Assembly: GCF_000426305.1 (NCBI RefSeq)
Contig: NZ_AUFC01000019.1
Span: forward strand, 1 to 64,000
From: Anaerovorax odorimutans DSM 5092
Lineage (GTDB): Bacteria; Bacillota; Clostridia; Peptostreptococcales; Anaerovoracaceae
Direction of reading: 5' to 3'
DNA length: 64,000 bases
Shown: positions 44,632-47,749 of the stretch, piece after piece
How the letters are laid out: each line of letters starts with the position of its first letter
Position numbering within the stretch: the first letter of the stretch is position 1
Position numbers and translations under genes: made by a program
Notes under the pieces: model-generated
The model's input: only the letters and a program-made list of their open reading frames with translations
The model's database searches: none
Told to the model about the DNA's origin: nothing

Positions 44632-44928
44632 TTAATGTTTTATTATACCATAAAAACACTTTTTCCACAAGAATACACCTACTCCAAAAGCAATAAAAGC
44701 ATGAATACTTATTTTGCCATAACTACAATAATATAGAAATGAAGAAATGATTAAAGCCGCAAAAATCCAAAATAATATATCTTCAATAAATAATACTACT
44801 TTACGAGGCTTTGTTTTATATTTTATCCAATCAAAAATTTCATAAAATATCATTATAGTCATTCCTGCATATAACATAATTAAAAATTCAAAAACTTGAT
44901 CTATAATGAGTTTATTTATGCCTGTCAT
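44632..44928 (-). CDS. yabQ: spore cortex biosynthesis protein YabQ
   Basis: A 98-residue membrane protein with about three hydrophobic segments (10-30, 45-65, 72-90), shorter than many YabQ proteins. It is recognised by position after yabP and by layout. YabQ is needed for cortex formation in sporulating Bacillus. Its ATG overlaps the yabP stop as ATGA, so the two are translationally coupled. Confidence 0.85.
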   Translation of the reverse strand: MTGINKLIIDQVFEFLIMLYAGMTIMIFYEIFDWIKYKTKPRKVVLFIEDILFWIFAALIISSFLYYCSYGKISIHAFIAFGVGVFLWKKCFYGIIKH

Positions 44929-45185
44929 TTTAATATTTTTCTCAGGAATCCTTTATCCTGTTTATCCTTTTTCTCTGTATATACGGCCGACATAATACTG
45001 CCTGTAATAATTGCCTTACCCTCTTCTAAATCCAACTTTTGTATATGCAACCCTTCCCCTTTAATTAAAATTCCACCACTTTCTAATAAAACTAAAATAC
45101 TTTGCTCATTAAAACTCTCTACATCCGAAACTTCTGTTATGGTAATTCTTTCTCTATTATCTATGCTGACTATATGATTTTCCAT
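44925..45185 (-). CDS. yabP: sporulation protein YabP
   Basis: An 86-residue YabP/YqfC-family protein (SIDNRERITITEVSDVESFN). It works with YabQ and the sporulation SigE programme in cortex formation. The frame opens at 45194 with GTG, but AAAGGAGG lies 8 bases before the ATG at 45185, so 86 residues is preferred. This ribosome-binding site is inside the hairpin that ends walK. Confidence 0.85.
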   Translation of the reverse strand: MENHIVSIDNRERITITEVSDVESFNEQSILVLLESGGILIKGEGLHIQKLDLEEGKAIITGSIMSAVYTEKKDKQDKGFLRKILK

Positions 45186-45190
45186 AAAAA

Positions 45191-45223
45191 ACACCTCCTT
45201 TTTTCTAATATATTAGGAGGTGT
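45191..45223 (-). terminator. walK terminator hairpin that contains the yabP ribosome-binding site
   Basis: On the minus strand ACACCTCCT (45215-45223) and AGGAGGTGT (45191-45199) form a 9-bp stem followed by six T residues. The 3' arm is the Shine-Dalgarno sequence of yabP. The hairpin starts 7 bases past the walK stop codon. Confidence 0.75.
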
Positions 45224-45229
45224 ATTAAT

Positions 45230-47047
45230 TTATTCTATATTTCGAATTCCTCTCATAGGTGCAAGGGGTAAAATAATTATAGCTTTAGTACCTTTTCCTT
45301 CTTTACTTTCTATTGTAATTCCTCCATTATGTTCTTCTACTATTTGTTTTGAAATAGCAAGTCCCAATCCGGTTCCTCCCATTGCTCTGGAGCGAGCTTT
45401 ATCAACTCTGTAAAAACGTTCAAAGACACGAGGAATTTCTGCTTCAGAAATTCCGATTCCATTATCGGTTATAATTATTTCAGCTTTAGAATCCTTTTTT
45501 ATAACATCTATATCTATTCTTCCACCGTCTTGAGTATATTTAATAGCATTGCTCAATACATTTAAAAATACTTGTTCCATTCTATCTTTATCAATTACAA
45601 CCATAACTTTGGAATTAATATCAAAAATACAGTTTAAGTGTTGGTTTTTGTTTTTTACAGTAAGTTCTACTTTTGTAACAACAGATTTTAGTAAACTAAT
45701 AAGATTACTATCCTTTTTAAACAGTTTTTCCTGTTGATAATCCAATCTTGAAAGCTGTAATAAATCTTTCACTAAGCGATTCATTCGATCCGCTTCTACA
45801 TCTATAATTTTCAAAAAACTTTGTGCTATTTCTTTATCCTCAACACCACCATCCATTAGTGTTTCAGTATAACTTTTAATAGATGTCAGAGGTGTTTTTA
45901 ATTCATGTGATACATTGGCAACAAAATCCATTTGCATATTTTCTAATTTCTGCCTTGCTGTAATATCCTGTATCATCATAATAATTCCTACATCAAGATC
46001 ATTTTCATCTTTAAATTTACCGTATCTTACTGCGAAGGTACATCCAGTATAATCAAAATTCTCCTCGCTTCCGCTGCCTTCACTGTTTTTCATAAGATTT
46101 TCCAAAATTAAATTACTATTGTAATCTTTAATTATATCATCATAATTTTTATTTTTTATATCATCTTCGCTAATATGCAGCATTTTCATTGCTGCCGGAT
46201 TTGCATGAATAATATTACCTGTTAAACTAACAGCAATAAGACCATCTGTCATATATCTTAATATTGTTTCAAGTTTAGTTTTTTCATTTGAAATCTCTGA
46301 AAGTGTAAGAGTAAGCTGCATCCTGAGAAAATTAAACATCTCCGCAAGGCGGCCTATTTCATCATCAGATTTAACACTAACCTCCTGACTGAAATCACCC
46401 TGCGCCATCTTTTCTGCTTTTTCTGTTACATCATTGATAGGTACAGTAATACTCTTAGCGATAATAAAACCTAATACAACTGTAATAAAAAGGGCCAATA
46501 CCATTGCTTTAACAAATATTTCTTTTGACCTGTTAATTGTTTTATAAATACTTGTTAAATCAGATCTAAGATATAAAACTCCTTTTGTATCTAAGTTTGA
46601 TATGGGAAATCCTAAATTTTTTGTTTGTTTTTGTGTTGTAGTCAAGCCATTAGATTCCGCTTTTTCACCATTTAGACCCTGCACAACAACATTTTTATCT
46701 AGTAGATCAATTGCATTGCTTTCTATAACATTTTCGTTATTGGATGCTATAATTTGGTAATCATCGTTTACAACAAAAATTTCTCCCTCAAACCCTTTTG
46801 TCCAAGCATCAATATTATCTTGAATTTCATCTTTATGTTTATTAAGATCATCATACTCACTCAGTGAAGTAATCATTCCGCTTTTATGAACTATCCTTGT
46901 CAAATTATCTCTTACCGAATCCATATAATAAGATTCCAGCTGGTTCATAATGAATATTCCTATTATAGTTGTAGCAATAAAAACAAGAAGAAAATATATA
47001 AAAACAATTTTCCATCGAATACTACTCCATGTTTTTTTCCAAATCAT
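45230..47047 (-). CDS. walK: sensor histidine kinase WalK-like
   Basis: A 605-residue kinase. Layout: transmembrane helix (about 14-33), outer sensor domain (34-180), second helix (181-203), HAMP (205-258), PAS (about 268-360), phosphoacceptor helix FVANVSHELKTPLTS (about 380) and ATPase domain with DNGIGI and GTGLGLAISKQ. WalK senses wall state and controls autolysins. The usual YycH/YycI partners are not next to it. AGGAGG, formed inside the last codons of walR, precedes the ATG. Confidence 0.92.
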   Translation of the reverse strand: MIWKKTWSSIRWKIVFIYFLLVFIATTIIGIFIMNQLESYYMDSVRDNLTRIVHKSGMITSLSEYDDLNKHKDEIQDNIDAWTKGFEGEIFVVNDDYQIIASNNENVIESNAIDLLDKNVVVQGLNGEKAESNGLTTTQKQTKNLGFPISNLDTKGVLYLRSDLTSIYKTINRSKEIFVKAMVLALFITVVLGFIIAKSITVPINDVTEKAEKMAQGDFSQEVSVKSDDEIGRLAEMFNFLRMQLTLTLSEISNEKTKLETILRYMTDGLIAVSLTGNIIHANPAAMKMLHISEDDIKNKNYDDIIKDYNSNLILENLMKNSEGSGSEENFDYTGCTFAVRYGKFKDENDLDVGIIMMIQDITARQKLENMQMDFVANVSHELKTPLTSIKSYTETLMDGGVEDKEIAQSFLKIIDVEADRMNRLVKDLLQLSRLDYQQEKLFKKDSNLISLLKSVVTKVELTVKNKNQHLNCIFDINSKVMVVIDKDRMEQVFLNVLSNAIKYTQDGGRIDIDVIKKDSKAEIIITDNGIGISEAEIPRVFERFYRVDKARSRAMGGTGLGLAISKQIVEEHNGGITIESKEGKGTKAIIILPLAPMRGIRNIE

Positions 47048-47050
47048 GCG

Positions 47051-47749
47051 TTATGGCCTCCTAAAGTAGTATCCAATTCCTCTTTTTGTCATAATATACT
47101 TAGGATCACTAGAATCATCTTCTAATTTTTCTCTAAGTCTTCGTACTGTAACATCTACAGTACGAATATCTCCATAGTATTCATAACCCCAAACTTCTTC
47201 AAGCAATTGTTCTCTTGAAAAAACTTTATTTTCTCTTTCTGCTAAGTACTTTAAAAGTTCAAACTCTCTAAGTGTCAGCTCAAGCGGCAAATCATTTTTT
47301 CTAACTTCATATCTATTTAAATCTATTGCGAGAGTGCCGAAATCTTTAATATTAGAAGGCTCTTTTTTAAGCTTATCAATTAAATCCGTACGCCTTATAT
47401 TAGCTTTTATTCTTGCTACCAATTCTCTCATACCAAATGGCTTCGTTATATAATCATCAGCACCAAGTTCAAGCCCCAGTACTTTATCCACTTCTTCTTC
47501 TTTTGCCGTAAGCATTAAAATTGGTACAGAACTTGTTTGTCTTACTTTTTTACAAACTTGAAATCCATCAAGCATAGGCAGCATAACATCCAATAAAATC
47601 AAATCAGGATTTAAAGTTTCTGCTTTGTTAAGACCATCTTTACCATCATAAGAAGTTTCAACTTCAAATCCTTCTTTTATTAAATTAAATTTTATTATAT
47701 CTGATATAGATTTTTCATCTTCTATTATTAGTACTTTTTTTAAGTCCAT
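47051..47749 (-). CDS. walR: response regulator WalR-like
   Basis: A 232-residue OmpR-type regulator. The receiver domain has the acidic pair EDEK, the phospho-Asp in LILLDVMLP and Lys in TKPFGMRE. The winged helix domain has VFSREQLLEEVWGY and DVTVRRLREKLE, followed by GIGYYFRRP, all typical of WalR/YycF. It likely binds upstream of cell-wall hydrolase genes. GGGGAGG precedes the ATG, with a consensus promoter upstream. Confidence 0.93.
   Translation of the reverse strand: MDLKKVLIIEDEKSISDIIKFNLIKEGFEVETSYDGKDGLNKAETLNPDLILLDVMLPMLDGFQVCKKVRQTSSVPILMLTAKEEEVDKVLGLELGADDYITKPFGMRELVARIKANIRRTDLIDKLKKEPSNIKDFGTLAIDLNRYEVRKNDLPLELTLREFELLKYLAERENKVFSREQLLEEVWGYEYYGDIRTVDVTVRRLREKLEDDSSDPKYIMTKRGIGYYFRRP

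Follow-up and report, generated by a model that had tools for sequence, protein, structure and literature searches.

The window analysed here is a stretch of 64,000 nucleotides from Anaerovorax odorimutans DSM 5092 (contig NZ_AUFC01000019.1, positions 1 to 64,000). On its minus strand, the sporulation genes yabP and yabQ follow genes for a response regulator and a sensor kinase, whose best NCBIfam matches are YycF (326 bits against a cut-off of 340) and WalK (531 against 725). Since both proteins score below the cut-offs, we refer to this pair as walRK-like. The genes after yabP-yabQ encode DivIC, then a Toprim/DUF4093 protein, which we take to be RNase M5-like, and then KsgA. A possible vegetative divIC promoter was noticed by eye inside yabQ (TTGTGG-17-TATAAT, with a TG before the -10; 44642-44670, minus strand), and this candidate was absent from the list returned by a scan of the window; if true, it would make divIC expression possible with yabPQ closed. 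The interval from the walK stop codon to the yabP start codon is 44 bases and contains the following features, listed with their neighbours:

44632 to 44928, minus strand: yabQ, which overlaps yabP by ATGA (PF09578; TIGR02893 over cut-off)
44925 to 45185, minus strand: yabP (PF07873; TIGR02892 over cut-off)
45186 to 45191, minus strand: T6 run after the stem, abutting the yabP ATG; the U-tract of a possible terminator
45191 to 45199, minus strand: 3' arm of a hairpin, AGGAGGTGT, which is the yabP Shine-Dalgarno sequence (SD), from pairing, folding and the comparison of SD-opening costs
45200 to 45204, minus strand: predicted yabP transcription start, an A-run just before the SD, placed from the position of the -10 element
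45200 to 45214, minus strand: hairpin loop of 15 nt, from folding
45207 to 45214, minus strand: predicted -10 element AATATATT, within the loop and 14 nt after the -35 block (sigma-E matrix)
45215 to 45223, minus strand: 5' arm (anti-SD) ACACCTCCT, in the promoter spacer and 6 nt past the walK stop codon (spacer-shuffle p 0.0065)
45229 to 45236, minus strand: predicted -35 element AGAATAAA, overlapping the walK stop codon (sigma-E matrix from other genes)
45230 to 47047, minus strand: walK-like sensor kinase gene, immediately upstream of yabP (best NCBIfam match under cut-off)
47051 to 47749, minus strand: walR-like response regulator gene (best NCBIfam match under cut-off)

Read along the minus strand, the walK TAA (45232-45230) is followed by six bases, the 5' arm, the loop, the 3' arm, the T run and the yabP ATG (45185-45183). 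The two arms pair at 9 of 9 positions to form a perfect 9-bp stem (45223-45191) with five G-C pairs, and the first T of the T6 run (45191) doubles as the last base of the 3' arm. The 50-nt stretch has a minimum free energy of -13.3 kcal/mol (z -3.9), which none of 200 dinucleotide shuffles equaled. A sequence-only reading of this DNA had identified the 3' arm as the yabP ribosome-binding site, paired exactly by the 5' arm, and we confirm a hairpin with the yabP SD as its 3' arm. That reading had also called the hairpin a walK terminator. A G+C-containing stem followed directly by T6 agrees with this name, but a loop of 15 nt is on the large side for a terminator of the intrinsic kind, and our terminator scan, which covered loops of 3-8 nt, did not return this hairpin. 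We therefore describe it only as a possible terminator. An Rfam search with 601 bases around the site gave two matches, scoring 21.3 and 20.5 bits where gathering requires 55 and 39.

Opening of the yabP SD requires 10.9 kcal/mol in RNA that reads through and 0.2 kcal/mol in the predicted own RNA of yabP. In a comparison of upstream-extended RNA from the 44 window genes whose SD matches at 5/6 or better, the yabP cost was the highest, the next being 6.4 and the median 1.85 kcal/mol. The cost depends on the 5' end of the RNA relative to yabP, falling from 10.1 kcal/mol at -38 to 5.4 at -35, 1.3 at -33 and 0.2 from -31, which describes a sharp accessibility switch between 5' ends at -37 and -33. 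The computed values bear out two earlier proposals, that read-through RNA has the yabP site closed (about 10-11 kcal/mol with the whole 5' arm) and that RNA starting in the loop or 3' arm leaves the SD free (at most 1.3 kcal/mol from -33 onward). The junction has two attributes of a hairpin that sequesters a ribosome-binding site only in read-through RNA, namely an SD in a stable 3' arm and a predicted own RNA without the 5' arm.

We searched for the promoter with a two-block sigma-E matrix derived from 47 upstream regions of spoIVA, spoIIIAA, spoIID and spoIIP in 14 family genomes. Eight of the original 55 regions were omitted for doubtful starts or the lack of a visible site; yabP was excluded from training, and the consensus used as seed was written down after an initial inspection in which yabP leaders were among the sequences viewed. 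The matrix converged on approximately [TG][TG][AC]ATAAA, a gap of 14 (weight 0.69) or 13 (0.21), and [CA]ATATA[TC]T. The best sigma-E-type site in the window, AGAATAAA-14-AATATATT, scores 14.3 bits with a gap of 14, and 0 of 50 shuffles were as good. Superimposing this site on the hairpin coordinates places the anti-SD arm in the promoter spacer, where shuffling of the spacer only gave the anti-SD p of 0.0065 listed above, and the -10 element in the hairpin loop. In the nearest relatives the loop carries [CA]ATATATT, with GAATAAA or a near match 14 nt upstream. The sequence-only reading had lacked a promoter; the sigma-E-type site supplies a candidate, positioned to start RNA within the zone in which the SD is free.

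The promoter motif alone is not rare in this A+T-rich genome: the short pattern ATAAA-N13-15-CATATA has 68 matches genome-wide, compared to 83 for the reversed control. Since the short pattern is not enriched over this control in the window genome, the promoter call rests on position and conservation. The genome encodes sigma-E (TIGR02835 over cut-off) and, in the available portions of two reports, B. subtilis yabPQ are sigma-E-activated (PMC517825, PMC3533761). We infer that sigma-E uses the nested site and that transcription starts just before the SD.

Several observations concern other sites. On contig C1 (minus) of the window genome, two sigma-factor pieces lie about 3.5 kb apart (L348, 17079-17369; L349, 13258-13617) and match TIGR02835 positions 23-119 and 111-229, a pattern that would fit a sigK gene interrupted by a skin-like element. 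At spoIIP (L224-L236), a sigma-E-type promoter apparently lies inside the 3' end of the preceding coding region, which ends ...GINITLHPGIYS and is presumably the end of gpr. In the yabP leaders of many other lineages (L065, L075, L077, L083, L289, L300, L304, L316, L325), GTTCTA rather than GMATAAA is found at or near the -35 place. TTGTCC or TGTCC recurs in the -35/-10 spacer of spoIIIAA and spoIID (e.g. L168-L171, L195-L197); we take this motif to resemble a SpoIIID site.

YabP was detected in 85 of 349 family genomes, that of the window included. Two of the 85 yabP loci were dropped (L076, N; L086, short upstream) and 83 were analysed, 29 of which have walK within 200 nt upstream (walK-adjacent) and 54 do not. 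We counted an SD hairpin as significant if at most 5 of 100 shuffles were as good, a promoter if it scored at least 10 bits, and the arrangement as nested if both were present in order. Walk-adjacent loci showed a hairpin in 20/29, a promoter in 22/29 and the nested arrangement in 16/29, compared to 11/54, 20/54 and 5/54 of the other family loci. The median opening costs for read-through and own RNA were 10.9 and 1.1 kcal/mol at walK-adjacent loci (own RNA being computable in 20/29) versus 4.6 and 1.8 kcal/mol at the others. In the remaining 9 of these 29 walK-adjacent loci the start is predicted within the SD core itself, so that leaders there would be very short. Leaders with walK upstream often display the same plan in different letters, with the SD as the 3' arm and T up to the ATG. 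The yabP leader of Sinanaerobacter chloroacetimidivorans (L027) is identical in sequence to the one in L051, where both the hairpin and the promoter are present. The earlier reading had proposed a check of the hairpin in relatives, and there it recurs with changed stem letters.

As controls we used ORFs selected from the retrieved loci according to a rule. Among these, 14/161 had a significant hairpin, 3/161 a promoter and 0/161 (strict) or 1/161 (loose) the nested arrangement; the median opening cost was 2.0 kcal/mol, and 6/161 cost at least 8 kcal/mol. With only 3/161 having a promoter of at least 10 bits, these ORFs are a better control for the hairpin than for nesting, for which spacer shuffles are fairer. 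Spacer shuffles gave p<=0.05 in 17 of the 22 walK-adjacent yabP with a promoter and in 7 of 20 other family yabP.

Since a MAFFT alignment of 11 leaders left the 5' arms out of register, we examined covariation by swapping arms: each leader was divided ahead of the SD, and the parts were exchanged among genera. Over all 29 walK-adjacent loci from 15 genera, which supersede an earlier, biased swap on 21 loci chosen for hairpins, the mean was 8.6 kcal/mol with the own arm and 6.3 with foreign arms. The own arm was favoured in 11/15 genera, and 1 of 10000 genus-level permutations reached the observed mean. The permutation result indicates that the stems change in step overall, and not in every genus, as foreign arms pair better than the own arm in 4/15 genera. 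Those four genera, and the ~9% of control ORFs (14/161) that reach the same hairpin threshold, are what could be said for chance complementarity between A+T-rich sequence and a G-rich SD. We find chance hardly credible, in view of the 0/200 shuffles at the window site, its rank as the highest of 44 window genes, the hairpins at 20/29 loci and the 1/10000 of the arm swap.

The hairpin could instead be a plain end-of-operon terminator packed against yabP, the overlap with SD and promoter saving space and SD occlusion being unselected. A T-run directly follows the stem, with TTTTT before the start at 17/29 walK-adjacent loci versus 4/54 other family loci, loops are short (4-5 nt) in several relatives such as L002, L049 and L079, and many other family loci carry, by eye, terminator-like repeats by the -10 that do not hide the SD. 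Against this, the SD is occluded without a T-run before the start in L004, L008, L012 and L068, and also at loci of the class sample described below, such as L329 and L336, and the 15-nt loop of the window is poor for a terminator. We consider a packed terminator with incidental occlusion unlikely. A hairpin that tunes yabP translation within its own sporulation transcript, starting inside walK, would have a parallel in the small hairpin at the B. subtilis sigG ribosome-binding site, which in the available text of PMC5942855 dampens translation 2-4-fold. We give this very little credence: no sigma-E-type site in the 110 nt upstream scores higher than the nested one, the same order is found in 16/29 relatives, and yabP would be shut off if its main transcript carried a hairpin of ~10 kcal/mol.

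Translational coupling would have a ribosome that ends at the walK stop codon open the hairpin, so that yabP is translated from walRK messages. In the window only 6 nt separate the stop codon from the 5' arm, so that a terminating ribosome could prevent pairing, and the gaps in L048, L051, L079 and L080 are 2-7 nt. The gap nevertheless varies from 2 to 77 nt among the 16 nested walK-adjacent loci, and the plan is also present at spoIVA with other neighbours. Moreover, the available part of PMC13323073 classes Bacillota as having runaway transcription, with polymerase outpacing ribosomes, which more likely lets the hairpin fold ahead of the ribosome. Coupling is, in our judgment, quite improbable.

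The arrangement is also found away from walK. The gene that precedes yabP in L121 and L122 would, as read by eye from its translation, encode a MurE-like ligase, and the hairpin, -10 and T-run are present. The murE-like stop codon lies inside the -10/loop, about 20 bases before yabP; since upstream coding here runs into the loop, a ribosome would disturb the 5' arm, which complicates insulation. In L052 a search of the locus gave no walK match; a different reading frame stops 160 nt upstream, and here too the hairpin is preserved.

Among other sigma-E genes, spoIVA shows the plan most often. Its leaders are nested in 7/11 (strict; e.g. L163, L165, L166), with spacer-shuffle p<=0.05 in 7/11; 11 of 14 rows were analysed, and counting the three omitted rows as misses gives 7/14 strict and 8/14 loose. 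Strict nested counts were 1/12 for spoIIIAA, with a strong nested plan in one genome (L180), 1/13 for spoIID, 2/10 for spoIIP and 0/11 for yqfC, and spacer shuffles gave p<=0.05 in 1/11 spoIIIAA, 2/12 spoIID and 2/10 spoIIP. The rows analysed were 12/14 for spoIIIAA, 13/14 for spoIID, 10/13 for spoIIP, 11/12 for yqfC and 2/14 for ylbJ, rows with a weak SD or doubtful start being omitted. The counts for spoIIIAA, spoIID, spoIIP and yqfC rule out the nested plan as a property of all sigma-E genes. Among the sigma-E genes examined in the window genome, the plan is clear at yabP only: its spoIVA has no significant hairpin (53/100 shuffles as good). The sigG gene of this genome likewise has no significant hairpin of the read-through type (11/100 shuffles as good).

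We extended the survey to a sample of the class, in which 117 of 147 genomes had a match; 90 loci were taken and 89 analysed, L334 having no open frame. A rule set the start codons, some of which are doubtful (e.g. L257, L263, L312). A promoter scoring at least 10 was present in 50/89 yabP leaders, and 10/89 were nested; a spacer anti-SD reached p<=0.05 in 8 of the 50 with a promoter (6 at 0.01; 8 of 25 families). By these criteria, 13/29 walK-adjacent, 49/54 other family and 79/89 class loci are not nested, and thus the feature is not required for yabP. The recurrence at spoIVA, behind a murE-like neighbour and in some other clostridial families suggests that the plan follows sporulation genes, not walK. 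Together with the genus-specific pairing, it indicates that the structure is kept on sporulation genes, with different genes upstream.

Hairpins that hide a ribosome-binding site only in longer transcripts have precedents. In the available text of PMC3014915, phage T4 gene e (lysozyme), soc, 49 and I-TevI have such a hairpin in early read-through transcripts, and the late promoters of gene e are located where the 5' strand of the hairpin is encoded, so that their RNA lacks this strand and is translated (PMC3014915). As far as that text goes, gene e resembles yabP in that longer upstream transcripts hide the SD whereas RNA from the own promoter is without the 5' strand, with the function shown for T4 and only predicted for yabP. 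The yabP case differs in being a bacterial sporulation gene with a sigma-E-type promoter, whose -10 falls in the loop and whose spacer includes the 5' arm, and in having a U-tract, which makes the hairpin a possible terminator. The transposase of IS10/Tn10 is protected from outside transcription by a ribosome-binding site that is hidden only in read-in transcripts, but this is a transposon gene and no developmental sigma factor is involved there. In riboswitches and attenuators, a single hairpin can terminate transcription or mask an SD; the proposed yabP switch is instead the start site and not a ligand, and there was no Rfam match at gathering. For B. subtilis sigG (spoIIIG), the available text of PMC5942855, citing Sun 1991 and Masuda 1988, proposes a large hairpin that blocks translation of spoIIG read-through. 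As described in that text, sigG is likewise a sporulation gene with a blocking hairpin that cannot form in RNA from its own promoter, but it has a forespore promoter and 20+ pairs, compared to a predicted mother-cell promoter and 9 pairs for yabP, whose hairpin may also serve as the upstream terminator. The switch logic is already known, insofar as these sources describe it for T4 gene e and B. subtilis sigG. The apparent novelty is how compactly the parts are combined: the spacer contains the anti-SD, the loop contains the -10, and the 3' arm is the SD, often with a T-run ahead of the ATG. The return of this layout at yabP and spoIVA in Clostridia likewise seems to be new. The titles and abstracts found in searches of the open-licence literature described no yabP or spoIVA leaders of this kind.

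We propose that the element is probably a developmental insulator forming part of a sporulation promoter. The computations show a hairpin, its overlap with the SD, a promoter-like site, a fixed order of these parts, a difference in accessibility and recurrence with changed letters, and the energetic and comparative results support the idea of insulation. In growing cells, polymerase arriving from walRK would transcribe both arms, and the hairpin and U-tract should end part of the transcripts. In RNA that reads through, the anti-SD arm would fold onto the yabP SD, and the computed energies are consistent with poor translation. Such partial termination and poor read-through translation are what we would expect in the cell. 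As yabQ overlaps yabP by ATGA, a closed yabP would probably lower yabQ too. In the mother cell, sigma-E polymerase would bind the promoter that has the anti-SD arm in its spacer and the -10 in the loop; the own RNA, beginning just upstream of the SD and without the 5' arm, would present a free SD, allowing yabP-yabQ to be translated. The sequence-only reading had walRK expression insulated from yabP-yabQ. Its insulation logic agrees with the energies and with the relatives, but the insulated party appears to be the sporulation gene, and the arrangement is not specific to walK.

Sporulation genes are packed behind growth genes, and leaky expression can harm: in the available text of PMC5942855, misexpressed sigG leads to inappropriate sigma-G activity during growth of B. 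subtilis. Some 50 bases appear here to unite a promoter, a possible terminator and a translational lock. More broadly, and tentatively, as we rate the generalization somewhat below even, clostridial mother-cell genes (yabP, spoIVA) may repeatedly have evolved an anti-SD between the -35 and -10 of their own sigma-E promoters, making these promoters self-insulating. If so, the same bases would serve in DNA as the promoter for the correct polymerase and would, in RNA arriving from upstream, lock translation, in many cases with a terminator tail attached, a recurrent device that silences developmental genes regardless of the upstream gene. The rule of an anti-SD in the spacer is searchable in genomes and testable with reporters. 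If true, it would give a reason for the timing of yabP and spoIVA behind different neighbours, and transcript levels across such junctions would overstate expression.
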